Source of the DNA: Methanoregula sp.
GTDB lineage: Archaea > Halobacteriota > Methanomicrobia > Methanomicrobiales > Methanospirillaceae
Length of the DNA stretch: 45,869 nucleotides
Assembly: GCF_028712425.1 (NCBI RefSeq)
Contig: NZ_JAQTQD010000021.1
Coordinates: 1 to 45,869 of the forward strand
Direction of reading: 5' to 3'
Shown: positions 4,441 through 36,337 of the stretch, one piece after another
How the letters are laid out: each line of letters begins with the position of its first letter
How positions within the stretch are numbered: position 1 is the first letter of the stretch
The notes under the pieces: model-generated
What the model was told of the DNA's origin: nothing
The model's database searches: none
What the model saw: only the letters and a program-made list of their open reading frames with translations
Made by a program: the position numbers and the translations under genes

Positions 4441-5958
4441 ATGCACAACAAACAATTCCTCCTGCTTGTCCTGATCCTTACGGCCGGGCTGCTTACCGTA
4501 CCCGCTTGTGCGGCAGCAGCCGAGACATCGGGTCCGGGCTACATAACGGTTACCAATCCCCCGGTTGCTGAATTTTTCTCCAGCACCCGGCTTGGCCCGG
4601 CGCCGCTTACGGTCAGTTTCGCGGATACATCACGGGGCTTTTCTCCGATGGAGTATCACTGGGACTTTGGCGACGGGTCAACCTCTGACCGGGAGAACCC
4701 GACGCACACGTACACTGCAGATGGTGAATATACCGTCCGGCTCACGGTCACCAATATCTACGGCACCGATACCCGGAGTGAACCTGTGTATATTCAGGTC
4801 GGGAATCCCCCTGTTGCTGGCTTTTCCGCATTCCCGGTGGAGGGGATTGTCCCGTTAAGCGTATCGTTCTCTGACACCTCGGTAAACCGCCCTGTCGCAT
4901 GGCAGTGGGAGTTTGGTGACGGCGCAACATCTAAAGAACGGTCCCCGTTGCATTCCTACGCCGTACCCGGGACCTACACAGTCCGGCTCAGGGTATCCAA
5001 TGCATTTGGCAGCGACACCCTGTCCCGGACAGACCTCATCAGCGCAGGAAGCATTATTCCTGTCGAGTCGGCCAGCGACACCGGGGGACCAGTGCGAAAA
5101 GAAGGGATCATCGGCCTGATCCAGGAAGCAAAAGGTCCTGCGGCAACGAACCTTCCGGCATCTGCATACATCCCGGCACAGTTCATGGCGCTTGCCGCAG
5201 TCATCACGAGCATTGCGGTTCTCGTCATCCAGGTCATCGTCGCAAACATCGCGTTCATCTGGCAGGTAATCCTGAAGTTCATGAAGTTCTTTGCAGACCT
5301 TATCGGGGGGCATGCGATCGAGAAGCTGAGCGAGAAGGAGATTGCTGCACGGAAGATTGCCGCAAGGAAGATGGAGCAGCATTATTTCGGGCTCTCGGCA
5401 ACGGAAGTCCTTGTCATCGAGATCGCCATCATCGTTGTCGCGCTGGCATTCATGCTTGCGGACCGGGCCGAACTCACCCTTGACATGGTGCTCATTTACA
5501 TTGCTGTTGGTGCGGTATCCGTGCTGCTCCACGATTTTGCACACCGGTACATTGCCACACAACACGGGCAGGATGCAGACACCCAGTTCTGGGGCCTTGG
5601 AACCGTCATCATGTTCGTCACGGCATGGCTCTTTGGCAATGCATTCGGCGCCTCGTACCGGAACCTCGTGAACCGGAACGATGACGAAAACCCCCGGACG
5701 ATAGGGATCGAGATGGTGGCCGGGCCGGTTGTATCCATCATCCTCACGTTCGTCTTCCTGGCTATGGTGATGGTGGGAGGGATCTGGGCTGTTGCCGGAG
5801 GGATCGGGTTTACCATCAACCTTATCACTGCAGTCTACAGCCTGATGCCCATCGAGACCATGGATGGTCTTGCGATCTGGCGCTGGAACAAATCGCTCTA
5901 TCTCGCGCTCTTCATCCCACTCTTCGCATTCTACTGCGCGGTGTTTTTGCTGATATAG
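4441..5958 (+). CDS. exported PKD-repeat protein fused to an M50-like membrane domain
   Basis: 505 residues. A signal peptide (about 1-26) is followed by two PKD domains (about 38-120 and 122-202), each with the W-x-FGDG core and a YTVRL strand. A linker and several transmembrane segments fill roughly 245-280 and 320-505. The C-terminal part follows the order of site-2-type M50 proteases: HDFAH at 364-368 where HExxH is expected, AGP at 427-429, and an N-x-P-x-DG stretch around 460-476. The catalytic Glu of HExxH is Asp here, so activity is uncertain. PKD domains normally face outside and bind surface sugars or proteins, suggesting a membrane sensor or processing factor. The ribosome-binding site GGGTGA fits this ATG. 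The stop is TAG. Confidence 0.85.
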   Translation: MHNKQFLLLVLILTAGLLTVPACAAAAETSGPGYITVTNPPVAEFFSSTRLGPAPLTVSFADTSRGFSPMEYHWDFGDGSTSDRENPTHTYTADGEYTVRLTVTNIYGTDTRSEPVYIQVGNPPVAGFSAFPVEGIVPLSVSFSDTSVNRPVAWQWEFGDGATSKERSPLHSYAVPGTYTVRLRVSNAFGSDTLSRTDLISAGSIIPVESASDTGGPVRKEGIIGLIQEAKGPAATNLPASAYIPAQFMALAAVITSIAVLVIQVIVANIAFIWQVILKFMKFFADLIGGHAIEKLSEKEIAARKIAARKMEQHYFGLSATEVLVIEIAIIVVALAFMLADRAELTLDMVLIYIAVGAVSVLLHDFAHRYIATQHGQDADTQFWGLGTVIMFVTAWLFGNAFGASYRNLVNRNDDENPRTIGIEMVAGPVVSIILTFVFLAMVMVGGIWAVAGGIGFTINLITAVYSLMPIETMDGLAIWRWNKSLYLALFIPLFAFYCAVFLLI

Positions 5959-10896: not shown

Positions 10897-10911
10897 AAAA
10901 AAGCCTGATGC
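10897..10911. repeat. 15-bp direct repeat, right copy (tRNA-Leu 3' end and terminator)
   Basis: Read on the minus strand this is GCATCAGGC followed by six T residues: the last bases of the tRNA plus its oligo-T terminator. The exact partner is at 9984-9998. Such repeats are the usual mark of site-specific insertion at a tRNA 3' end. Confidence 0.7.
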
Positions 10912-10993
10912 GAGGGATGGGATTCGAACCCAAGAACTCCTGCGAGATCAGGCCCTGAACCTGACGCCGTTGACCTGGCTTGGCTACCCTCGC
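10909..10993 (-). tRNA. tRNA-Leu (anticodon CAG)
   Basis: Read on the minus strand, a 7-bp acceptor stem (GCGAGGG with CCCTCGC) plus discriminator A encloses a D arm, an anticodon stem UCAGG/CCUGA with loop UUCAGGG (anticodon CAG, decoding CUG), a long variable arm typical of class II tRNA-Leu, and a T arm with loop UUCGAAU. The 85-base length fits tRNA-Leu. CCA is not encoded. Six T residues at 10897-10902 form the terminator. No TATA box lies directly upstream; the nearest promoter-like element is beyond the truncated copy at 11020-11077. Confidence 0.95.
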
Positions 10994-11126: not shown

Positions 11127-12989
11127 TTAGGCTTTCTTCTGGCCGTTCATCTCGTTCTGGAACTTCTTCAGCTCGCGGTCGCGGAGTTCGTTCCTGCGGA
11201 TCTTGCCGGAGATTGTCTTGGGGAGCGATTCGACAAACTCGATTGCCCGCGGGTACTTGTACGGTGCGGTCACTTTCTTGACATGGTTCTGGATCTCGCG
11301 GATGAGCCCTTCGGACGGGGTGTATCCCGGTTTTAAGATGATGAATGCCTTGACGATCAGGCCGCGGATGTCATCCGGGGACCCGACGACCGCGGCTTCC
11401 TGGACTGCCGGGTGCTCGATCAGGGCACTCTCAACCTCGAACGGTCCGATCCGGTACCCGGAAGCCTTGATCACATCGTCGTCCCTGCCAATGAACCAGA
11501 GGTACCCGTCTTCATCCTTGTAAGCCTTGTCCCCGGTGTAATACCAGTCGCCGATAAAGGACTTTTTGTTCTCCTCAGGGTTGTTCAGGTACTCGCGGAA
11601 CATTCCCACGGGGCGGGGATTGCAGCGGATCGCAATCTTGCCTTCTTCATGGAACAGGACCGGCTTCCCGTGGTCGTCATGGAGCTCGATCTCCCACCCG
11701 GGGGAGGGGCGTCCCATCGAGCCGTACTTCGGCTGCATGCCCGGGAACGTGCCAACACAAAGGATAGTCTCGGTCTGGCCGTAGCCTTCGTAGATGGTCA
11801 GGCCTGTCGCGTCCTTCCAGGCCTTAATGACCTCAGGGTTGAGCGGTTCGCCGGCACTGGTGCAGTGCCGGAGCTCGGTGAAGTCAAACTTGTCGAGGTC
11901 CGCGAGGATCAGCATCCGGTAGATCGTTGGCGGGACACAGAATGTTGTGATGCCGTATTTCTCCATGAGCGGCAGGATCTCGGTTGCATTGAACCTGCCC
12001 CGGATATCGTAGACAAAGATGGCCGAACCCTCGATCCACTGACCATAGAACTTGCCCCAGGCGCTCTTGGCCCATCCCGTGTCGGAAAGCGTGAGATGGA
12101 GATCGGTCGAGCGGAGGTCATGCCAGAACCGTGCCGTGACAATATGCCCGAGAGGGTAACTGTGGTCGTGAACCACCATCTTTGGTTCACCCGTGGTGCC
12201 GGAGGTGAAGAAGATGACGAGTGGGTCAGTGCTTTTTGTCTTTTTCATTCCCGGAAGGGTGACGAGTTTTGCCGAAACCGGTGCCGGGTAATCGAGCTCC
12301 ACCGGATAGCTGATCCACCCGTCACGTTTCCCATCGATCAGCATGCGGCAGGTAAGCGACGGGCAGTCTTTCATGATGGAATCAATCGTATCGGCATGTT
12401 CGGTGTCGGTAATGACCATCTTGATCTCTGCGATATTGATACGGTATTTCAGGTCTTTTGCCGTCAGCATCGTGGGCGCCGGGCAATAGACAGCACCGCG
12501 TTTGATCAGGGCGATGGTGGCGGTCCACCATTCCGGGATACGGGGGAGCATGATCAGGACGCGGTCTCCCTTGTTGACACCGTACTTTATGAACATGTTC
12601 GCGATCTGGTTCGAGAGGCGCATCAGGTCCCAGAACGTGAACTTCTTCTCCTCACCTTTCTGGTTCACCCAGATCATCGCAAGCTTGTTCCGGTCCTTCT
12701 GTGCCCAGGCATCGATGACATCGAAGCCGAAATTAAAAAAATCAGGGACATCGATCCGGAAGTTCTTTGCCATGGTCTCGTAATCGGGCATGTTATACTG
12801 GTCAGGGAAGATGGTTTTTCCGGTGGACGGGAGCGTTGTGGAGCTTACCGTGACTGCACCGGGAGTTGTCGAGAGATGGGCCTCGCACGCTTCGGTAATC
12901 CACTCGGATCGTGACAGCCGTTGCTTTTTGGCAGACACATCAATCGTATCAGCAAGGGTATCGTCCATAGTAATGGAGTATCGCACCAT
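11127..12989 (-). CDS. acyl-CoA synthetase (AMP-forming) with N-terminal ribbon-helix-helix domain
   Basis: 620 residues. From about residue 67 it is a complete ANL-family acyl-CoA synthetase: P-loop FFTSGTTGEPKMV, YGQTE motif, GDKAYKDEDGYLWFIGRDDD hinge region and the C-terminal catalytic Lys in KTISGKIRRNE. It resembles medium- or branched-chain acyl-CoA synthetases and would convert a carboxylic acid, ATP and CoA to acyl-CoA, AMP and pyrophosphate. The first 45 residues (VRYSITMDDTLADTI, then KKQRLSRSEWITEACEAHL) have the strand-helix-helix pattern of a CopG-type DNA-binding domain. A Ser/Thr-rich linker joins the two parts. The paralogue just upstream lacks this domain. An internal start at about 12789 would remove it, but no ribosome-binding site is seen there. 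Confidence 0.9.
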   Translation of the reverse strand: MVRYSITMDDTLADTIDVSAKKQRLSRSEWITEACEAHLSTTPGAVTVSSTTLPSTGKTIFPDQYNMPDYETMAKNFRIDVPDFFNFGFDVIDAWAQKDRNKLAMIWVNQKGEEKKFTFWDLMRLSNQIANMFIKYGVNKGDRVLIMLPRIPEWWTATIALIKRGAVYCPAPTMLTAKDLKYRINIAEIKMVITDTEHADTIDSIMKDCPSLTCRMLIDGKRDGWISYPVELDYPAPVSAKLVTLPGMKKTKSTDPLVIFFTSGTTGEPKMVVHDHSYPLGHIVTARFWHDLRSTDLHLTLSDTGWAKSAWGKFYGQWIEGSAIFVYDIRGRFNATEILPLMEKYGITTFCVPPTIYRMLILADLDKFDFTELRHCTSAGEPLNPEVIKAWKDATGLTIYEGYGQTETILCVGTFPGMQPKYGSMGRPSPGWEIELHDDHGKPVLFHEEGKIAIRCNPRPVGMFREYLNNPEENKKSFIGDWYYTGDKAYKDEDGYLWFIGRDDDVIKASGYRIGPFEVESALIEHPAVQEAAVVGSPDDIRGLIVKAFIILKPGYTPSEGLIREIQNHVKKVTAPYKYPRAIEFVESLPKTISGKIRRNELRDRELKKFQNEMNGQKKA

Positions 12990-13124: not shown

Positions 13125-14792
13125 TTATTTGCTGTCAAGGTATTTTTTCAGCTCTGCCGCACGAAGCTCATTCCGTTTGATCTTGCCCGAGATGGTCTTG
13201 GGGAGTTCGCTGACAAATTCTATCTGCCTCGGGTACTTGTAGGGCGCGGTGGTGCGTTTGACATAGGTCTTGATCTCCCGCACCAGCGATTCCGAGGGTT
13301 CGTATCCCTTCTTCAGGACCACAAATGCCTTGACGATCAGTCCGCGGATGCGATCGGGAGATCCGACAACGGCAGCCTCCTGCACGGCAGGGTGTTCCAG
13401 AAGGGCACTCTCGACCTCGAACGGACCGATACGGTACCCCGAGCTCTTGATCACGTCATCATCACGCCCGACAAACCAGAAGTACCCCTCGCCATCGCGG
13501 TACACCTTGTCGCCGGTGTAATACCAGTTGTTGACAAACGACTTCTTGTTCTCTTCCGGGTTGTCAAGATACTCGACAAAGAGGCCCGGCGGGCGGGGCT
13601 TGCAGCTGATGGCAAGCCGGCCTTCCTCGTGGTTTCCCAGTGCCTTGCCGCCATCGTCATGCACCTCGATCTTCCATCCGGGAGAAGGCTTTCCCATGGA
13701 ACCGGGCCGTGGTTCGACCGTCGGGAACGCGGCAACACAGCAGCAGGTCTCTGTCTGGCCGTACCCTTCGCAGATGGTCAGGCCCGTTCCTTCTTTCCAG
13801 ACCCGGATCACTTCCGGGTTCAGCGGTTCGCCTGCGCTGGTGCAGTGCCGGAGCGAGGAGAGGTCAAACTTCTCCAGGTCGGCAAGGATAAGCATCCGGT
13901 AAATTGTCGGGGGACAGCAGAACGTACTCACCTGGTATTTTTCCAGCAGGGGGAGGACCTCGGTTGCCTGGAACTTTCCGGTGAAATTGTACGCAAAGAT
14001 GCAGGCGCCTTCGATCCACTGCCCGAAGATCTTGCCCCAGGCACACTTGGCCCACCCGGTGTCGGAGACCGTGAAGTGCAGGTCATTGTGCTTCACGTCC
14101 TGCCAGAGCCGGGCAGTCACAATATGTCCCAGCGGGTACCCGTGGTTGTGGAGAACCATCTTGGGTTCCCCGGTGGTGCCGGAAGTGAAGTAGATGAGCA
14201 TCGGGTCTGTGCTCTTTGTCTTGAGATCATCCGGGATGCTTACCGAGCGGTGGGAGACGGGTGCCGGGTAGAGTAACTCGTAGGGGAAGCTTGCCCATCC
14301 CGCAAGTTCGCCGTCCGCGATCATCCGTGAGGTCAGTGTCGGGCACTCGTTGCAGATCTCTTCGACCTTGGACGCGTTCTCAAGGTCGGTAATGATCATA
14401 CGGAACTTCCCCTTGTTCACCCGGTACTTGATGTCACGGGCCGTGAGCATGGTGGGGCAGGGAGCAAAGACGGCACCAAGCTTGATCAGCGCAATAGAGA
14501 AGATCCACCACTCAGGGATCCGCGGAAGCATCACGAGTACGCGGTCGCCCTTGTTGATGCCGTATTTGAGCAGGATGTTTGCAGCCTTGTTGGAGAGGTT
14601 CTTTAAATCGAGGAAACTGTATTTCTTCTCCTCTCCCTGCTGGTTCACCCAGATCATCGCAAGCTTGTTCCGGTCCTTCCTCGCCCAGAAATCGATCACG
14701 TCAAATCCGAAGTTATAGTATTCCGGCACATCGATAGCGAAACGTTCGCACATCTTATCGTAACTATCCGTGCCATGAACGGTCTTTTTCAT
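13125..14792 (-). CDS. acyl-CoA synthetase (AMP-forming), paralogue without RHH domain
   Basis: 555 residues, with the same architecture as the catalytic part of the gene at 11127 and close similarity along the whole length: YFTSGTTGEPKMV P-loop, YGQTE, GRDDDVIKSSGYRIGP hinge and KTISGKIKRNE with the catalytic Lys. It starts about 20 residues before the shared motif IDVPEYYNFGFDVID, which supports the ATG at 14792. The two genes run head to tail on the minus strand with a 135-base gap and probably arose by tandem duplication. Likely substrates are short, branched or medium-chain acids. In a hydrogenotroph such enzymes would serve carbon assimilation rather than energy; the substrate cannot be told from sequence. 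Confidence 0.92.
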   Translation of the reverse strand: MKKTVHGTDSYDKMCERFAIDVPEYYNFGFDVIDFWARKDRNKLAMIWVNQQGEEKKYSFLDLKNLSNKAANILLKYGINKGDRVLVMLPRIPEWWIFSIALIKLGAVFAPCPTMLTARDIKYRVNKGKFRMIITDLENASKVEEICNECPTLTSRMIADGELAGWASFPYELLYPAPVSHRSVSIPDDLKTKSTDPMLIYFTSGTTGEPKMVLHNHGYPLGHIVTARLWQDVKHNDLHFTVSDTGWAKCAWGKIFGQWIEGACIFAYNFTGKFQATEVLPLLEKYQVSTFCCPPTIYRMLILADLEKFDLSSLRHCTSAGEPLNPEVIRVWKEGTGLTICEGYGQTETCCCVAAFPTVEPRPGSMGKPSPGWKIEVHDDGGKALGNHEEGRLAISCKPRPPGLFVEYLDNPEENKKSFVNNWYYTGDKVYRDGEGYFWFVGRDDDVIKSSGYRIGPFEVESALLEHPAVQEAAVVGSPDRIRGLIVKAFVVLKKGYEPSESLVREIKTYVKRTTAPYKYPRQIEFVSELPKTISGKIKRNELRAAELKKYLDSK

Positions 14793-15019: not shown

Positions 15020-15574
15020 ATGGCTGACAAAAAGTACGCGTCATTGAAGATTGAGAATATCGTAGCTTCCGGGGTTATTGCGGATTCCATTGACCTTGCT
15101 GATGTCTCAAGTAAGATCAAGAGCTGCGAACTCAATACAAAACGGTTCCCGGGTGCAGTCTACCGTATTGAAAACCCCAAGATTGCATCCCTGATCTTCT
15201 CATCGGGTAAGGTTGTGCTGACCGGTATCCGTGACAAGAAAGCACTCGCTGACGGCCTTGGCATCATCATCAAGTCCCTCAAGGCTGCCGGTGTCGACAC
15301 CTTCAAGGAGCCCAAGGTCGCAATCACCAATATTGTCTGTTCCTACGATATCGGGAAATATATCAACCTCAATAAAGTGGTTATCACCCTGAACCTGGAG
15401 AACATCGAGTACGAGCCCGAGCAGTTCCCCGGCCTCGTGTACCGCATCAAGGATCCCAAGATCGTTGCGCTTCTCTTCTCTTCAGGAAAGATTATTCTTA
15501 CCGGTGGAAAGAACCTCGAAGACATCAAGAAAGGCCTCGACTTCCTCGAGCAGAAGCTCGAGAGCATAATGTAA
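15020..15574 (+). CDS. tbp: TATA-box-binding protein
   Basis: 184 residues, the usual archaeal TBP length, made of two direct repeats of the saddle fold (about 8-90 and 100-180). Matching landmarks in both halves are FPGAVYRIENPKIASLIFSSGK and FPGLVYRIKDPKIVALLFSSGK, each followed by a helix. It recognises box A and recruits TFB and RNA polymerase at every promoter. The N-terminus MADKKYASLKIENIVAS fits the family, supporting the ATG at 15020. It stands alone, divergent from the acyl-CoA synthetase pair and convergent with lhr; a T-rich tract just after the stop (about 15580-15588) may end transcription. Confidence 0.97.
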   Translation: MADKKYASLKIENIVASGVIADSIDLADVSSKIKSCELNTKRFPGAVYRIENPKIASLIFSSGKVVLTGIRDKKALADGLGIIIKSLKAAGVDTFKEPKVAITNIVCSYDIGKYINLNKVVITLNLENIEYEPEQFPGLVYRIKDPKIVALLFSSGKIILTGGKNLEDIKKGLDFLEQKLESIM

Positions 15575-15610: not shown

Positions 15611-18307
15611 TCATGCCCAGTACCGGTGTGTCTGGACAAAAATGCGTTCTGCCTTGAGGATCTCACGGTAGAACGCATCCCCTTCCGCCAGCGTCCCGAG
15701 GATCCGGGAGGCAGTATCTGGCCCAACGCCCCGGGCAGAGAGCGCGATAACCGCTTTTTTCCCGCTTGAAAGAACGATGTTTGCGTTTTTTTTGAGCCGC
15801 TGCTCAGTTGCGCGTTCTTCGGCATTCTTCCGCTGCTTTTTTACTTGGGCATACTGCTACTCCTCATATGGTTTCAGCGCAGCAACGAGCCTTGCCCCGC
15901 ATTTCGGGCACCGGGGATGTTCCTCAACACGGGAGACAATCGTCCGGCTCTTCCAGTCACGGCAGTTCATGCAGGCAAGGATGACATCGTCCTGGCTGAG
16001 CCGGCGCTTCAGCGTGGCAAGCACAGCACTGTCCATTGTGGGCGGGGGGATCTGGTCGCGGGATGAGAGGAGGCCCCCTGCCCCGATTAGGGAGTGCGGA
16101 CCGAGCGCCACCTGGATCTTCCCGTTCCGGACAAGGGTAACGATCGCTGCTGCAGTGTCGATATCCATATACTCAGACAGCAGCTCGCGATAGGCTTCCT
16201 GCTGGACAACCGTGTTATCAAAGAAGTCGAGGAGGCGCTGGATGCTGATCTTTTCATAATCGGCATCGGGATCAATGGCCCCGAACTTCTTGGCAATCTG
16301 GACCAGCTTCCACTTGAAGAGCGCGGTCCGTTTCAGGGCAAGCCGGAGGACGCCGGGCATCGTCGCAGGGTCCAGGGAGAGAAGAAGGTCGCGGACATCT
16401 GCTGCCCGGATGGAGGAGGGGAGGCGCAGGAGCATACGGTAGGCATCCAGTTCAAGGCCGACCGTTGTACCGTAGCGGGCGGAGAGCAGGATCGAGAGGA
16501 CTCTTCCAAGCGCCTCGTTTGCCTTGTGACCGGCACAGACATTGCAGACAACACCGTCATCGGTATTCTCAAGCGTGATAAGGTCGTCAGTCGGGACAAG
16601 AGACCTGTTTTTGTCCATTTCCCGGAAGAATGCGGATGCAAAGGCGATCCCGTCGGGTTCTGTGCGGTATTTCGCAAGCGACCGCGTCCTCCGGATGCCG
16701 CCAGCTTCCTGTGCAACGGAGTGCGGGACCGGGATCTGCTCGCCTTCCCATGAGGGGAGCTCACCGATTGCCTTCTTTGCAGGTTCCACGGTCAGCTTCC
16801 CGTCAGCGATCTCAAGCACGCGCCAGAGCTGCCCCTTGGTGATAAAAACAACCCCGGTGTGGACCCAGCCAACGACAAAGGATTCATCCAGGGTCCCGAC
16901 TGTGCGCCGGGAGACAATGTCGAAAATGGGTACCTTACGCTCATCATGGATCATTGAGAGGTTCCCTGCAAGGTACCGTCGTGCCCGGGCAGTGGTGACG
17001 ATCCGGCTCCCGTCAATCCGGATGAGGTGGTGATCTTCCATCTGACGGCAGACCTTTTCTAAGAGTTCGTCACAATCGGGGAACAGGATTGTCCGTTCGC
17101 AGATCTCGCGGATTCCCGAACATTCGATCTCCCCGTATTCGACCGCAATCGCCGCTACCTGGTTTGCGAGAACATCTGCTGCATACCGTGGCAGTACCAC
17201 CGGTTCGATCTCGTTTGCGCCCGCCTTCCGGGCAATGACAAGGGATTCCAGGAGGTCGTCAAATCCCGTGGCAAGAATGGTGCCGCGCGATATGGTATTC
17301 AGCTGGTGCCCGGCCCGGCCCACGCGCTGCACCAGGCGTGCAACCTCACGCGGCGAGCCGAACTGGATGACATGATCAACGCGGCCGATATCAATCCCGA
17401 GCTCCATGGATGAGGTGCAGATGAGGGTGCGGATCTCCCCTTTCTTGAACCGCTCTTCTGCATCAATCCGTACTTCCTTGGAGAGCGAACCATGGTGCAC
17501 CTCAACATCACCGTGGCCGAAAAGGGCATGCCCGAGTGCTTCCGCCGTGACCCGTGTATTGACAAAGACAAGGGTCGATCCCTCGCGTTTCAGGTATTTT
17601 TTCAGCACTTCGACCTGGTGACGGAAATCGTCGCCCACGAACTGTACCGAAAGGTCCAGCTGTTTGGCTACCGGCACCTGCACCACAGAGCAGGGCCTGA
17701 CCCCGCACAGGAAGCCTGCTATCTCCCCGGGATTTCCCACGGTTGCCGAGAGGCCGATTCGCTGGAATTCCCCGGCATACACGTGGAGACGCTCGAGCCC
17801 GACCGCAAGCTGGGCGCCCCGCTTGCTCCCGGCAAGCTCGTGGATCTCGTCGATGATGACATACCGGACATGGGCCAGGTGCTGCCGGAGCCGTTTTCCC
17901 ATGAAAAGGGCCTGGAACGTTTCCGGCGTTGTTATCAGCAGATCGGGAGGCGAAAGAGCCTGTTTCCTCCGTTCAGCCATCGGCGTGTCGCCATGCCTTA
18001 CACCAACGGTAAGGCCAAGCTCACCGCACCACCACTGCATGCGGGAGAGGATATCGCGGTTCAGGGAGCGCAGGGGTGTGATGTAGATGGCCTTGAATCC
18101 CCCACCTCCCGGAAGGGGGATGAGGCCATTAAAAACCGGAAACATCGCGCTCTCGGTTTTACCGGTTCCGGTGGGTGCAATGAGGACGATGTTATTCCCA
18201 TCAAGAATGAGCGGTATCGCCTGTTTCTGTGCATCGGACAGGGATGTAAATCCGCGTTTCCGGATACACGAACGGACCCGCGGATCCAGCCGTTCAACCG
18301 TCTTCAT
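15611..18307 (-). CDS. lhr: Lhr-type ATP-dependent helicase, reading frame interrupted by one in-frame TAG
   Basis: Superfamily 2 helicase. Walker A APTGTGKT (44-51), DEIH box (153-156), SAT motif, QRVGRAGH motif VI, then Lhr winged-helix and core domains and a zinc-finger pair (CMNC...CPKC). The uninterrupted frame ends after 816 residues at a TAG (15857-15859). Beyond it the same frame continues for 81 codons, encoding the usual end of archaeal Lhr-like helicases (KNANIVLSSGKKAVIALSAR, GVGPDTASRIL, ending THRYW), and stops at a TGA at 15611. I start at ATG 18307 (MKTVERLDPRV); the frame is open upstream but overlaps the phosphoesterase. The family unwinds DNA or RNA-DNA during repair. Genes upstream in the operon encode a phosphoesterase and an RPA-associated protein. 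Confidence 0.88.
15857..15859 (-). other. in-frame TAG inside lhr
   Basis: The codons on either side read ...LKPYEE-TAG-QYAQVKKQRK... with no frame change. At least five other genes in this window end in TAG (4441, 19924, 26341, 34011, 35381), so TAG acts as a normal stop here. TAG is one base from CAG (Gln) or GAG (Glu). Confidence 0.9.
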
Positions 18308-19049
18308 CCTGCACCAGTGAACTGAAGGGGCCGATGTATGTCCCATCGGCAAGGATGATCTCGGCGCTTTTGCTGTCCATGCACCGTGACAACGGGGAGA
18401 AGGGATCGTTGACGATACGGGAGATATCATAGCCGGCAAGTTCGTTGAAGGCCGGCATGAAAAGCAGCCTTGTCTGTGCCACCTTCGCAGCAGGAACGGA
18501 GAGGTCCCCCTTGCCGGCCATCAGCCCGGCCCTGATATAGGCGGGTTCCTGGAGGGCACAGCCTACCTCGTCACGGAGGGCCAGGAGCGGGTGGTGATGC
18601 CCGACAACGATGAGATTCCCAAACAGGTCCGGTGCCGGGTTCATATGTCCGTGGAGAAACGCAATCCCGTTGATCAACGCTCCGTCCCGGGGACAGATCT
18701 CGGTTTTTTTAGCAAACCGCTCGATCCCGATGTCATGATTGCCGGGAAAGATGAGGAGGGGGAGCCGCGAACGCAGGGTCTCCATAACCCCCGGGAGTTC
18801 ATGGTACTCCTGCCGGGTCAGGGAGGGAATACTGTGCTTGATATCGCCCAGGAGAATAAGCCGGTCCGGGTCGGTGAGATCGATGACCCGCATCAGCCGC
18901 TCCAGGCGTTCTGTACTCCGGCTGGCAAAATGGAGGCCGTGGGCTGCAAGGTCTGCCTCGATACCAAAATGCAGGTCGGACACAACCAGCAGGCGCTCTT
19001 CGTTCTCGATAACAAGCGCCGGGCCGGAGCGGATGAATTCCAGTTTCAT
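18294..19049 (-). CDS. calcineurin-like metallophosphoesterase (COG1407/PdeM-like)
   Basis: 251 residues with the metal-binding motifs of the family in order: SDLHFG near residue 23, GDIKH, GNHD, and GHHHP around 150. It belongs to the small ICC/PdeM-like phosphoesterases that are often neighbours of Lhr helicases; the bacterial PdeM is part of a ligase-associated DNA repair set. The start ATG at 19049 overlaps the stop of the upstream gene as ATGA, and its 3' end overlaps the start of lhr by 14 bases, so the three are almost certainly one transcript. A nuclease or phosphodiesterase role in DNA repair is inferred from context, not proven. Confidence 0.88.
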   Translation of the reverse strand: MKLEFIRSGPALVIENEERLLVVSDLHFGIEADLAAHGLHFASRSTERLERLMRVIDLTDPDRLILLGDIKHSIPSLTRQEYHELPGVMETLRSRLPLLIFPGNHDIGIERFAKKTEICPRDGALINGIAFLHGHMNPAPDLFGNLIVVGHHHPLLALRDEVGCALQEPAYIRAGLMAGKGDLSVPAAKVAQTRLLFMPAFNELAGYDISRIVNDPFSPLSRCMDSKSAEIILADGTYIGPFSSLVQDEDG

Positions 19050-19816
19050 AAGAGCCTGACGTACCCTTTCCGGGGCTGGTAGCACTCGTCGTCTACGATG
19101 AGTGACTCAAGTGCCGCAAGCACGGATTCTTTCCGGATTCCCTTCCTTCCCAGCACCGCGATCACTTCTTCAACCGCAATCCCCTGCGGGCCGGAAGCAG
19201 TCCCGACCAGCCCCCGCACTTCAGCAATGATATCTGCTGCAACTTCCGCGGTAACCGGCGCGAGCGGGCGAATCCCCAGGATGACGCGCTCCACCATCTC
19301 CAGGATTTCCTGAAGGTCTTTTGTGGTGGTGGCGTAATGCCGGAGCGCCCTCCTGATATTTTCATCAGCGTTCCCACCATTGATCGCAAGGCGCATCTGC
19401 CCGATACGCTGAAGCGTGTATTCCGCTGTTGAGAGATAGATCTGGTCGCGGGTGGCCCGGTCAATAGGCAGTATCTGTTCCGGGCGCATGGTGGGGGAAC
19501 CAGGCCTCCTGTTCTGGTTCATCTGGGCAAGACCGGTTACCGTCACAAAGGAAGGTATCGGGATCGTAGTGATGGCATCCTTCAGCGCTCCTTTTCTCCA
19601 GGAGATGAGATCGAAGGCCCCGGTAGGATCCGCCACACGGCAGCGTGCCATGTCACCGGATTCATCGGCTTCTGTTAAAACCCCGGCAAAAAATACCTGC
19701 CGGCAGCAGGCACCGGTAGGTGTAACGATCCCTCCCGGAGCACTGCTTTCCCCGGACGGTTCAACGAGCGTTGACCGGGAAAACTCCCCGGCAAATACCC
19801 TGGCTGCACCTTCCAT
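19046..19816 (-). CDS. RPA-associated OB-fold protein (COG3390-like)
   Basis: 256 residues. An N-terminal OB-fold region contains RQVFFAGVLTEADESGD and a DPTGAFDLISWR strand, and TVTGLAQMNQNRR follows. The middle is helical, and the C-terminal 70 residues look like a winged helix (VEEVIAVLGRKGIRKESVLAAL). This arrangement matches RPA-associated proteins, which accompany replication protein A in euryarchaea and bind single-stranded DNA. It is the first gene of the minus-strand operon that continues with the phosphoesterase and lhr. Only the ATG at 19816 includes the whole N-terminus. No rpa gene is visible next to it. Confidence 0.75.
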   Translation of the reverse strand: MEGAARVFAGEFSRSTLVEPSGESSAPGGIVTPTGACCRQVFFAGVLTEADESGDMARCRVADPTGAFDLISWRKGALKDAITTIPIPSFVTVTGLAQMNQNRRPGSPTMRPEQILPIDRATRDQIYLSTAEYTLQRIGQMRLAINGGNADENIRRALRHYATTTKDLQEILEMVERVILGIRPLAPVTAEVAADIIAEVRGLVGTASGPQGIAVEEVIAVLGRKGIRKESVLAALESLIVDDECYQPRKGYVRLL

Positions 19817-19923: not shown

Positions 19924-20475
19924 CTATTGACTGCAACGAGCCCTGTAGCAAACCAGTGCTACCAGTATTGAAACGATGATGATACCGGGATGAAAAGGAC
20001 TTTTCGTGGCAGACGGATGTGCAGTTCCCGCGGTTTTGTCGGTAACCATTGAGGGGGGGACAAGGCTGCTGTCCAGGCTGTATGCCTGTGTATAGGCATC
20101 TGCTGCCTCGTTCACCCGGCCAAGCGCCCGCAGAGCATCACCTTTACTGTAATAAGCAGCCGCATAGGCATTGGGAAGATCGGTTGCATTGACGGAGACA
20201 ACGCGATCCGCAGCAACAATCGCGTCTTCATACCGTCCCAGCTGCACAAGGATTCCTGCCTGGTTGGCCCATGCCAGCGGCATGCTCTCGTTCAGGGAGA
20301 GTGCCTTCTCGTTTGCCGCAAGAGCAGCAGAGAACTGGCCGGCATTTGCCAGGTCTACGGCCTGGTTGTACCAGTACCAGGGATTGTCTTCAGCAGGTGT
20401 ATTTTCCGCCGAGAGTGCCGGCGTGATGATCAGGAGGCTTGCGACAATGACCAACAGTCCTGTTCTGATGTCCAT
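19924..20475 (-). CDS. membrane-anchored exported TPR protein
   Basis: 183 residues: a signal peptide (MDIRTGLLVIVASLLIITPALS), then about three tetratricopeptide repeats (WYWYNQAVDLANAGQFSAAL, LAWANQAGILVQLGRYEDAI, AYYSKGDALRALGRVNEAAD), a Ser/Pro linker and a C-terminal hydrophobic segment (GIIIVSILVALVCY) with basic residues after it. It is probably held in the membrane by its C-terminus with the repeats outside, where they could mediate protein contacts. No specific function can be assigned. The stop is TAG. A T-rich tract after the stop on the minus strand (about 19904-19914) may act as a terminator. Confidence 0.8.
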   Translation of the reverse strand: MDIRTGLLVIVASLLIITPALSAENTPAEDNPWYWYNQAVDLANAGQFSAALAANEKALSLNESMPLAWANQAGILVQLGRYEDAIVAADRVVSVNATDLPNAYAAAYYSKGDALRALGRVNEAADAYTQAYSLDSSLVPPSMVTDKTAGTAHPSATKSPFHPGIIIVSILVALVCYRARCSQ

Positions 20476-26050: not shown

Positions 26051-26344
26051 ATGTTCCTGAAGATTCACCGTTCTCCCGAAACGGGGGATGTCGTGGCAAT
26101 CTGTGATCGCGAACTCCTGAATACGACGATCAGCAACGATTCGATCACTGTTACCATAAGTGAAGCATTCTATGGCAGCAGTGCTGCCACGGAAGATGAA
26201 GTAAGAAAGGCCCTGTCGTGTGCTGCCAATGCAAACCTTATGGGTGAGCGGACAATAGCAATTGCCATCGATATGGGTCTTGTCACCCGGGCCGGCTGCA
26301 TCATGATCGGCAGCGTGCCGCATGCACAGATCTACCAGCTATGA
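26051..26344 (+). CDS. DUF424 family protein
   Basis: 97 residues, the standard length of this archaeal family, with FLKIHRSPETGDVVAICDRE at the start and a conserved GCIMIGSVPHAQIY at the end. DUF424 is widely conserved in euryarchaea and its function is unknown. It often sits beside translation genes, and here its stop overlaps the nmd3 start as ATGA, suggesting coupled translation and a role in ribosome assembly or RNA biology. Confidence 0.85.
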   Translation: MFLKIHRSPETGDVVAICDRELLNTTISNDSITVTISEAFYGSSAATEDEVRKALSCAANANLMGERTIAIAIDMGLVTRAGCIMIGSVPHAQIYQL

Positions 26345-27381
26345 GTATCCGGGATACCTTCTGCCCGAAATGCGGAAAACCAACCGATAACGGGGGATTC
26401 TGCAGGGAATGCCGCATCGGCAATACCCCCTGGTATACCTGCGATTCCCGGGTTATGAGTACCCAGTGTCCCAGTTGCGGGGCGATAAAACAGGTCAATA
26501 CCTGGTCTGACAGCGAACTGACAAAGGATGAGCTGGGGCCTGCTTTGGCACGTTCCGCTGTCCACTTTCATCACGATGTCAGGAAACCCTCTGTCACGGC
26601 CCGGATCGAGGACGTGACCGTGAACCGGTCCAGGGCATTCCTCACTATTCACGGAACGTTCTATAATGCACCGGTTGAAGCGGCGTGTACGGTCGAGATC
26701 ATCTGGAACAAGGAGCAGTGCGACCGGTGTAACCGGATCAGCGGGAGCTATTACGAGGGTGTCGTCCAGGTACGGGCCGAAGGAAGGAGCCCCAGTACAT
26801 TCGAGATCCAGATGGCTTCCTCCATTGCCCAGAATATTGAGGATAATCTCCAGGCCGGAGGAGAACGGCTTTCGTTTATTTCGGACATGAACGAGATCCA
26901 TGATGGTATCGATATCATCATCGGTTCACAGCATATCGGGCTCATGATTGCACAGGCCATTGTTGCCCAGCTGGGTGGCAGGTATACAACACACCCGAAA
27001 CTGGTGGGCGAGAAGAACGGCAGGCAGCTCTACCGGATCACCTATTCGGTCCGCCTCCCCCGGTTCCAGAAGCATGACATCATCGTCTCCAGGAAGAGGT
27101 ACTATGAAGTTGACCGGGTGGAAGCGCACCACGTCCGGGTGACCGACCTCATGGATGGGACGACAAAATCCATCCGGGATGATGATGTTGAGCGGATCGC
27201 GGGGAATTCCCGGAATGCAATCCCTGCGCTTGCTGCATTTGTTGACGGCTCAATGGTCGGCATCATCGACCCGGAAACCAGCAAATCCATGGATGTTGCA
27301 AAACCGAAATGGATAGAGATCCGTGCCGGCGACCATGTCAGCATCATCAGGGACAACGAGAACCTCATCATTGTCAGGTAG
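26341..27381 (+). CDS. nmd3: archaeal NMD3 homologue
   Basis: 346 residues. The N-terminal zinc region has paired cysteines (CPKCG, CREC, CPSCG, CDRC), as in NMD3. The middle matches archaeal NMD3 (GGERLSFISDMNEIHDGIDI, GGRYTTHPKLVGEKNGRQLYR). The C-terminal part contains the SH3-like region. Eukaryotic NMD3 is the export adaptor of the large ribosomal subunit; the archaeal form is thought to act in large-subunit maturation. The start overlaps DUF424 as ATGA. The stop is TAG, followed by ATA and then the ATG of the next gene in the same frame, so read-through would join the two proteins. Confidence 0.9.
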   Translation: MSIRDTFCPKCGKPTDNGGFCRECRIGNTPWYTCDSRVMSTQCPSCGAIKQVNTWSDSELTKDELGPALARSAVHFHHDVRKPSVTARIEDVTVNRSRAFLTIHGTFYNAPVEAACTVEIIWNKEQCDRCNRISGSYYEGVVQVRAEGRSPSTFEIQMASSIAQNIEDNLQAGGERLSFISDMNEIHDGIDIIIGSQHIGLMIAQAIVAQLGGRYTTHPKLVGEKNGRQLYRITYSVRLPRFQKHDIIVSRKRYYEVDRVEAHHVRVTDLMDGTTKSIRDDDVERIAGNSRNAIPALAAFVDGSMVGIIDPETSKSMDVAKPKWIEIRAGDHVSIIRDNENLIIVR

Positions 27382-34010: not shown

Positions 34011-35339
34011 CTACAGAGCAGTTTTTTTCAGGTTAGCAAGCACGCGTTCCTTTTTCCGGATCGCCGCTTCCGAAGCCCGCACAACCCCGTTTTTCATCTC
34101 CTCGAAATCGCGGGCTTCCGTGTCAGCAACCTTCTTGACCGGCGTGTACGCGGACTCGCGGAACCGTGGCGAGAAGTCATGGTCCCTGCCATCCCTGCGG
34201 AGTACAGCTTCAGATTTCCCGGCCTCGACATGACCAATCTGCTTCATGGTTACTCCTGCAGAGCCGATGGCCCGGATAATTTCCGCTGCCACATCCTTTG
34301 GGGCAACCACCAGCAGGGAGTCCAGCGAAACGCCGAGATAATCGATCCGGAGTTTCTCAAGCATCTCTTTTACCTGCGGCTGGACAAGGCTGCCAATCTC
34401 CGTCTCATCAATGACAATCCGGCAGCCGGCAGTCTCGGCCATCTCGAATGCATCCCCGCGGAGGCCGCCATTGGTAACATCGGTCATTGCGTGAATGCGG
34501 GAAAAGACAGGATGTTTCATCAGCGACTCGCAGGCAAAGAGGAAATTTAAGTTTATTGTCTGCTCGACAACCTCGGGGAATCCGGAGTAGATTGCAGCAG
34601 TCGCAATTGTGCCACCGCCTGCTCCCTCTGTCATAAGAAGGACATCTCCCGGCCGTGTGGATTTTCTTGCAGTGAGGTGCTCTGCGACCCCTACTGCGCC
34701 GACGCAGCCGGTGAGCCGGTTGCCAAGCACCATATCCCCGCCGATCCGCAGCGTTGAGCCGGTGACCAGCGGGACGTTCATCGCTTCCCCGACAGTTGTG
34801 ATCCCGGCAGTATAGTCAAAGATCTTTGCCACATCGCCATCATCAGCAACATGGATATCGGAGAAGAGCATGACGGGCTTTGCACCCATAACATAAGCAT
34901 CCCTGAGCGTGGCCCGGGTCACATGGAATCCTGCAAGGAAGGGGAAATCGGAGAGACGGGAATGCATACCATCAACCGTACAGACGATGTACTGGCCGCC
35001 GGCCTTCACCGCGCCGGCATCATCCATCTCGTCAACCCCGACAGATGCAGAAGTCTTGCCGATGATGCGGGCGATCTGGCGGTGCGCAAAAAAGTCCCCT
35101 TTCCCCCGGGAGCCCACGCCAAACTCACCCATGCAGACACCTGCAGGTTCAAACTCGAAGAGATCTCCCGAGAGTCCACCGGAGTTTTTTGCCTCCTCGA
35201 TCACTGCCTGTGCGAAAGCTGATGCATACGAGGGATTACACCCTTTCATCCGGACAATATGATCAGCGAGGCTTTCAATGAGGGCGCTCTCGTTCCTGCC
35301 TTCGGCAAGACCCCTGCGGGCATACTCCTCAACATCCAT
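34011..35339 (-). CDS. AIR synthase-related protein (PurM/HypE/ThiL-like)
   Basis: 442 residues. After a helical N-terminal region of about 100 residues (DVEEYARRGLAEGRNESALI) comes an AIR-synthase-type fold: VGVDEMDDAGAVKAGGQYIV, VTRATLRDAYVMGAKPVMLF, VTGSTLRIGGDMVLGNRLTG, MTEGAGGGTIATAAIYSGFP and DVTNGGLRGDAFEMAETAGC. Members of this superfamily bind ATP and phosphorylate or cyclise small substrates (PurM, ThiL, SelD, HypE). The long N-terminus fits a methanogen-type AIR-synthase-related protein, sometimes called HypE-like, without a proven function. Minus strand, stop TAG. It lies inside the segment bounded by the inverted repeats but looks like an ordinary core gene. Confidence 0.82.
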   Translation of the reverse strand: MDVEEYARRGLAEGRNESALIESLADHIVRMKGCNPSYASAFAQAVIEEAKNSGGLSGDLFEFEPAGVCMGEFGVGSRGKGDFFAHRQIARIIGKTSASVGVDEMDDAGAVKAGGQYIVCTVDGMHSRLSDFPFLAGFHVTRATLRDAYVMGAKPVMLFSDIHVADDGDVAKIFDYTAGITTVGEAMNVPLVTGSTLRIGGDMVLGNRLTGCVGAVGVAEHLTARKSTRPGDVLLMTEGAGGGTIATAAIYSGFPEVVEQTINLNFLFACESLMKHPVFSRIHAMTDVTNGGLRGDAFEMAETAGCRIVIDETEIGSLVQPQVKEMLEKLRIDYLGVSLDSLLVVAPKDVAAEIIRAIGSAGVTMKQIGHVEAGKSEAVLRRDGRDHDFSPRFRESAYTPVKKVADTEARDFEEMKNGVVRASEAAIRKKERVLANLKKTAL

Positions 35340-35380: not shown

Positions 35381-36337
35381 CTACCGCAGGAGAATCCCCA
35401 GGACTTCAGAAAAAGCGTGGAACGCATCGTCGACATTCCCGTTTTTCAAAAGTGCCAGGCCTTTCACAAGACCCGTGCGGACATCCTTTACATCGATGTA
35501 ATACGCTTTGTCGAAAGCGCGGGCCGATTCTTCGAGCCGGCCGGTGAGGAAACAGGAGTTGCTCAAGACAACCCAGGCATCAGCGTTAGAAGGATCGATC
35601 CCGAGCGCCTTTTCAAGAACCGGGATCGCTTCATCATGACGGCCCATGAGCGAGAGCGCAAGCCCTTTCCGGTATAATGCTTTTGCATGCGCAGGTTCAA
35701 GGGAGAGAGCACGGTCAAGGCTCTCAATGCCGTCACGGTATTCTTTCAGGTGGATGTGCGCAATACCCTTGTTGACAAGAGCCGAGAGAAAGAACGGGAA
35801 GATCTTCAGGGCGCGATCATAGCACGCGATCTCCTCTTCATAGCGTTTCAGTTTCCCGAGCGCAAATCCCTTGTTCACCCACGCTGAGAGGTAACGGGGC
35901 CGCACGGCAAGTGCGCGATCGCAACAATGGATCTCTCCCTCATGTCTGCCGAGCATCCCCAATGCAACACCCTTGTTGTTCCATGCCGTTGCATTCTCCG
36001 GATCGATTGCAAGGGCCTGATCGCAGCAGGAGATCTTCTCCTCAAACCGGGCCAGCATCCCGCAGGCAAATCCGCGGTTGTTCCATGCATCGATATTCCT
36101 GGGATCGAGCTCGATAGCTTTCTTACAGCATTCGATCTCCTCTTCGTAGCGCCCCAGTTTGCCAAGGGCAAAACCACGGCCCACCCATGCGGGGGCAAAT
36201 GAGGGATCAGCATCAATGGCACGGGTGAACGCCTCAAGTGCCTCTTTGTGCTGCCTGCTGCGCCCAAGCGCAAGGCCCCGGGTATGGTAATTCCTGCATT
36301 CTTCCCTGGATCCGGAATGAGAATTTTGTATTGACAT
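35381..36337 (-). CDS. tetratricopeptide-repeat protein
   Basis: 318 residues, almost entirely about nine tandem 34-residue TPRs with a regular W-x-GRG/NKG-FALGKLGRYEEEI pattern, for example AWVGRGFALGKLGRYEEEIE and AWNNRGFACGMLARFEEKIS. Cysteine pairs (ECCKKA, SCCDQA, HCCDRA) recur in successive repeats, which is unusual and might reflect metal or disulfide chemistry, or simply recent repeat expansion. There is no signal peptide, so it is likely a cytoplasmic scaffold. No partner is evident. It lies upstream of the AIR-synthase-like gene on the same strand with a 41-base gap, so the two may be co-transcribed. The stop is TAG. Confidence 0.85.
   Translation of the reverse strand: MSIQNSHSGSREECRNYHTRGLALGRSRQHKEALEAFTRAIDADPSFAPAWVGRGFALGKLGRYEEEIECCKKAIELDPRNIDAWNNRGFACGMLARFEEKISCCDQALAIDPENATAWNNKGVALGMLGRHEGEIHCCDRALAVRPRYLSAWVNKGFALGKLKRYEEEIACYDRALKIFPFFLSALVNKGIAHIHLKEYRDGIESLDRALSLEPAHAKALYRKGLALSLMGRHDEAIPVLEKALGIDPSNADAWVVLSNSCFLTGRLEESARAFDKAYYIDVKDVRTGLVKGLALLKNGNVDDAFHAFSEVLGILLR

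Follow-up and report, generated by a model that had tools for sequence, protein, structure and literature searches.

Does the single in-frame TAG in a helicase gene of Methanoregula sp. reflect a truncated protein, a stop codon that is translated through, or a wrong base in the assembly? The gene lies on the minus strand of the 45,869-nt stretch of DNA that we analysed (the window), together with the following features:

18294..19085, minus strand: metallophosphoesterase directly upstream, with a 14-base overlap with the helicase frame (family match; context as in PMC8301817)
15860..18307, minus strand: aLhr1-type SF2 helicase, codons 1-816, with RecA1, RecA2, winged helix, Domain 4 and a Cys4 zinc-finger-like motif (PF00270, PF00271, PF19306, PF08494; Cys alignment)
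15857..15859, minus strand: in-frame TAG at codon 817, where relatives have Glu, as GAG in the closest two and as GAG/GAA in the two after them (codon alignment)
15611..15856, minus strand: conserved C-terminal tail, 81 codons and TGA (in-frame alignment to relatives)
15020..15574, plus strand: gene for the TATA-binding protein, intact and in convergent orientation to the helicase (family match and comparison with the closest relative, G002)

Translation of 15611-18307 (minus strand) gave a frame of 898 codons, with 816 codons opening on ATG at 18307, then TAG, 81 further codons and TGA. This confirmed the description in the initial annotation of one TAG (15857-15859) splitting an Lhr-type helicase from an 81-codon tail in the same frame that ends with the TGA at 15611, and the tail aligned in frame to the HRYWA end of the relatives. 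No stop other than codon 817 preceded the terminal TGA, so the frame was otherwise undamaged, as had been claimed. The gene was single-copy in this genome, and its named relatives were Methanoregula species, like the host, which agrees with the Methanomicrobiales affiliation assumed in the initial annotation. The helicase closes its strand run and faces a convergent gene, so the TAG affects no downstream gene.

Two further observations were made in the same part of the window. Two adjacent genes on the minus strand (11127-12989 and 13125-14792) encode AMP-binding (acyl-CoA/acetate ligase-like) proteins, and each cross-matched the other's G002 counterpart at ~71% DNA identity, which suggests a tandem duplication. 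At tRNA-Leu(CAG) (10909-10993, minus strand), G002 carries ~13.6 kb of additional DNA with no counterpart in the window, which probably stems from integration of an element at this tRNA in that relative.

The domains of the helicase (DEAD, Helicase_C, Lhr winged-helix and DEAD_assoc, the last being Domain 4, PF08494) supplied the SF2 core, winged helix and Domain 4 expected of an aLhr1. Domain 4 is followed by a Cys-rich motif, CMNC...CPKCG (CxxC...CxxCG), in which C779, C782, C800 and C803 were invariant among the aligned relatives. A C-terminal Cys-rich motif of this zinc-finger-like kind separates aLhr1 from aLhr2 (Hajj et al. 2021, PMC8301817), and the same study reported Methanomicrobiales to be without aLhr2 and many of them to have a metallophosphatase gene upstream of alhr1. 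Given the Cys motif, the reported lack of aLhr2 and the upstream metallophosphoesterase, we take the Methanoregula protein to be an aLhr1, an assignment made on motif, domains and gene context.

The tail itself yielded few clues to function. Searches of Pfam and PDB with the tail alone returned nothing significant, and the match to the RuvA C-terminal region was non-significant (E ~0.4), a hint at most. Helices were predicted in the tail at low confidence, and the AlphaFold model was poor there (pLDDT ~40). With its GVGPxxASRIL motif and predicted helices, the tail probably binds nucleic acid or a partner. None of its 81 codons is an in-frame ATG, GTG or TTG, so re-initiation is not a simple route to the tail.

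Among the homologues listed, the stop occurred in this genome alone. Relatives at 96, 95, 90 and 89% identity aligned along the full 898 residues and contained no stop, and the homology of the tail is thus not due to chance. Of 39 genomes of the genus, ~30 had a helicase matching at full length (898 residues, 79-96% identity), and an internal stop occurred only in this genome; the remaining matches were partial and mostly from fragmented genomes. Order-wide, the helicase was present in 207 of 232 genomes and in 132 of the 135 near-complete ones. Among the matches listed from those 207 genomes, no homologue besides the one studied here had an internal stop and the full-length homologues retained the tail. 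The initial annotation had held that close relatives whose helicase also ended at the TAG would speak against its reading, and no such relative was found among those checked. In the codon alignment, codon 817 was GAG in the nearest two relatives and GAG and GAA in the next two. The TAG is therefore explained by one G-to-T change, which reads C-to-A on the plus strand. Provided that the base is real, this comparison of sequences establishes a change from GAG to TAG.

Selection on the tail bears on the age of the stop. The dN/dS of the tail was 0.157 and 0.110 between this genome and two sisters, and 0.138 between the sisters, in line with the earlier statement that the tail had kept its coding character. 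The helicase body was under strong constraint (dN/dS ~0.05). When tail changes were polarised by parsimony, nonsynonymous to synonymous counts were 2/3 in this genome and 3/4 and 3/6 in the sisters. A tail unconstrained over the whole branch would predict dozens of amino-acid-changing differences (~44 as a rough figure), and the observed changes were far below this expectation, so the tail has been under selection for nearly all of the branch. An old stop with relaxed selection on the tail was rejected, since neither dN/dS nor the polarised counts showed measurable relaxation. With a tail as constrained as in the sisters, the stop is very young, false, or read through; if the base is real, the comparison establishes its youth. 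The constraint fits read-through and does not require it.

Whether TAG is decoded in this organism was examined at the level of the genome. The initial annotation counted at least five other genes ending in TAG, and five conserved window genes (4441-5958, 19924-20475, 26341-27381, 34011-35339 and 35381-36337) did so exactly where the aligned G002 orthologues end in TAG as well, so that TAG acts as a stop in this genome. We therefore rejected reassignment of TAG, and the earlier opinion that a genome-wide reassignment is unlikely gained further support from the missing pyl genes and CUA anticodon. A search for PylS gave only matches below the cut-off (19-27 bits against 178), and a PylD search of the genome gave nothing above its cut-off; in control searches, one of 14 control genomes, a set that includes Methanosarcina acetivorans, passed the cut-off in each case. 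An anticodon of CUA, UUA or UCA was absent from the 43 that could be read among 44 tRNA matches (one tRNA-Met had an intron), and ARAGORN made no tRNA call at the weak match C18:128528 (31 bits). With up to one mismatch allowed, the pattern of a pylT-like anticodon arm occurred at a tRNA-Lys and at a single chance site and nowhere else. The genome-wide search for pylT, pylS and suppressor tRNAs that had been proposed at the outset thus found none, and since the draft is ~97% complete in 56 contigs, the absence of decoding genes is strong, short of absolute. Pyrrolysine decoding was rejected, as neither PylS, PylD nor a pylT-like anticodon arm was found; a pyrrolysine-decoded gene is expected with PylRS, with PylD and tRNA-Pyl (CUA), and with an in-frame TAG conserved in orthologues, and each of these was lacking. 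A suppressor tRNA was likewise rejected on the anticodons read. The 110 nt after the TAG folded slightly worse than shuffled sequences (z +1.2), and an RNA element after the stop was rejected accordingly. Programmed read-through is recognised by a conserved stop and a downstream signal, and here the stop was unconserved and the RNA fold not unusual.

The tRNA survey also recovered four tRNA-Cys(GCA) genes (contigs C50 and C12), three of which lie within 12 kb on C50. Such redundancy for one anticodon is unusual in a small archaeal genome.

These results bear on the options named in the initial annotation (recent nonsense mutation, read-through or suppression, assembly error), which all stand, with a mutation or a one-base error fitting the data and suppression unlikely. 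We consider it an even chance that the TAG is a recent nonsense mutation, maybe polymorphic, that yields a helicase without its last 81 residues. A recent G-to-T transversion would have turned Glu codon 817 from GAG to TAG in the single-copy gene, possibly in only part of the population, and translation would end after the zinc-finger-like motif; the resulting protein of 816 residues would retain the helicase core in full. Production of the short protein in the cell, and any change in its activity, are inferred. Counting against the nonsense mutation, a single-copy, constrained gene kept by nearly all near-complete genomes of the order would not usually carry a fixed truncation. Slightly less probable is an intact gene that encodes Glu at codon 817 in the organism, the TAG being either a single wrong base in the consensus or assembly or a minority variant chosen by the assembler. 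The one aberrant base stands in a gene that is otherwise intact and under strong selection, with an undecayed tail; the assembly is a draft, and the publicly available relatives are mostly metagenome bins. However, the change is a simple substitution, lies 15.8 kb into the contig, and is neither a homopolymer indel nor at a contig end. Of the conserved window genes compared with the syntenic G002 region, none but the helicase was broken, and none of the matches listed for ABC_tran, Radical_SAM and HATPase_c domains genome-wide (~130) had an internal stop. The consensus as a whole is therefore not poor, nor are internal stops in excess. A lone wrong base is still quite possible, the more so given the strong constraint on the gene.

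If the TAG is real and undergoes partial read-through or suppression, by a near-cognate tRNA, a suppressor tRNA or pyrrolysine, a mixture of helicases of 816 and 898 residues would result; we regard this as unlikely. The purifying selection still acting on the tail speaks for it, in-frame stops under purifying selection in bacteria have been interpreted as read-through (PMC7918605), and for a tail without its own start this is the sole simple way to be made. Yet a young stop explains the selection signal, the stop is absent from the relatives listed, the other TAGs are true stops, and neither known decoding machinery nor a favourable RNA fold was found. Still more doubtful is useful translation through a real TAG without pyrrolysine machinery, by which one gene would give a core and a tailed helicase. 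A genuine split, with the tail made as a separate small protein, is hardly credible: the tail is an intact open frame, but its lack of a start codon led us to reject a separate tail gene, and the relatives listed have no split at this position. The locus has the look of a commonplace, very recent mutation or a consensus error, not of a novel mode of decoding.

The finding is ordinary in that, according to Belinky et al. (2021, PMC7918605), single in-frame stops of very short age are widespread among the genomes of bacteria; lone recent nonsense changes or consensus errors are to be expected in draft genomes. The helicase TAG resembles those stops in being single, in an otherwise constrained gene and of very short evolutionary age. 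It differs in occurring in one genome, whereas that survey kept stops common to at least two species as a guard against artefacts. Hajj et al. (2021, PMC8301817) stated that no aLhr1 had yet undergone biochemical characterisation, and if the base is confirmed, the strain would show in a natural setting whether aLhr1 can do without the portion beyond its zinc-finger-like motif. The Methanoregula protein shares with the aLhr1 group (MCL class 3, PMC8301817) the RecA1/RecA2 core, winged helix, Domain 4, C-terminal Cys-rich motif and a further helical C-terminal part, and its locus shares with those of many other Methanomicrobiales the upstream metallophosphatase gene. The Methanoregula copy is set apart by a TAG after the Cys motif that would remove the last 81 residues.
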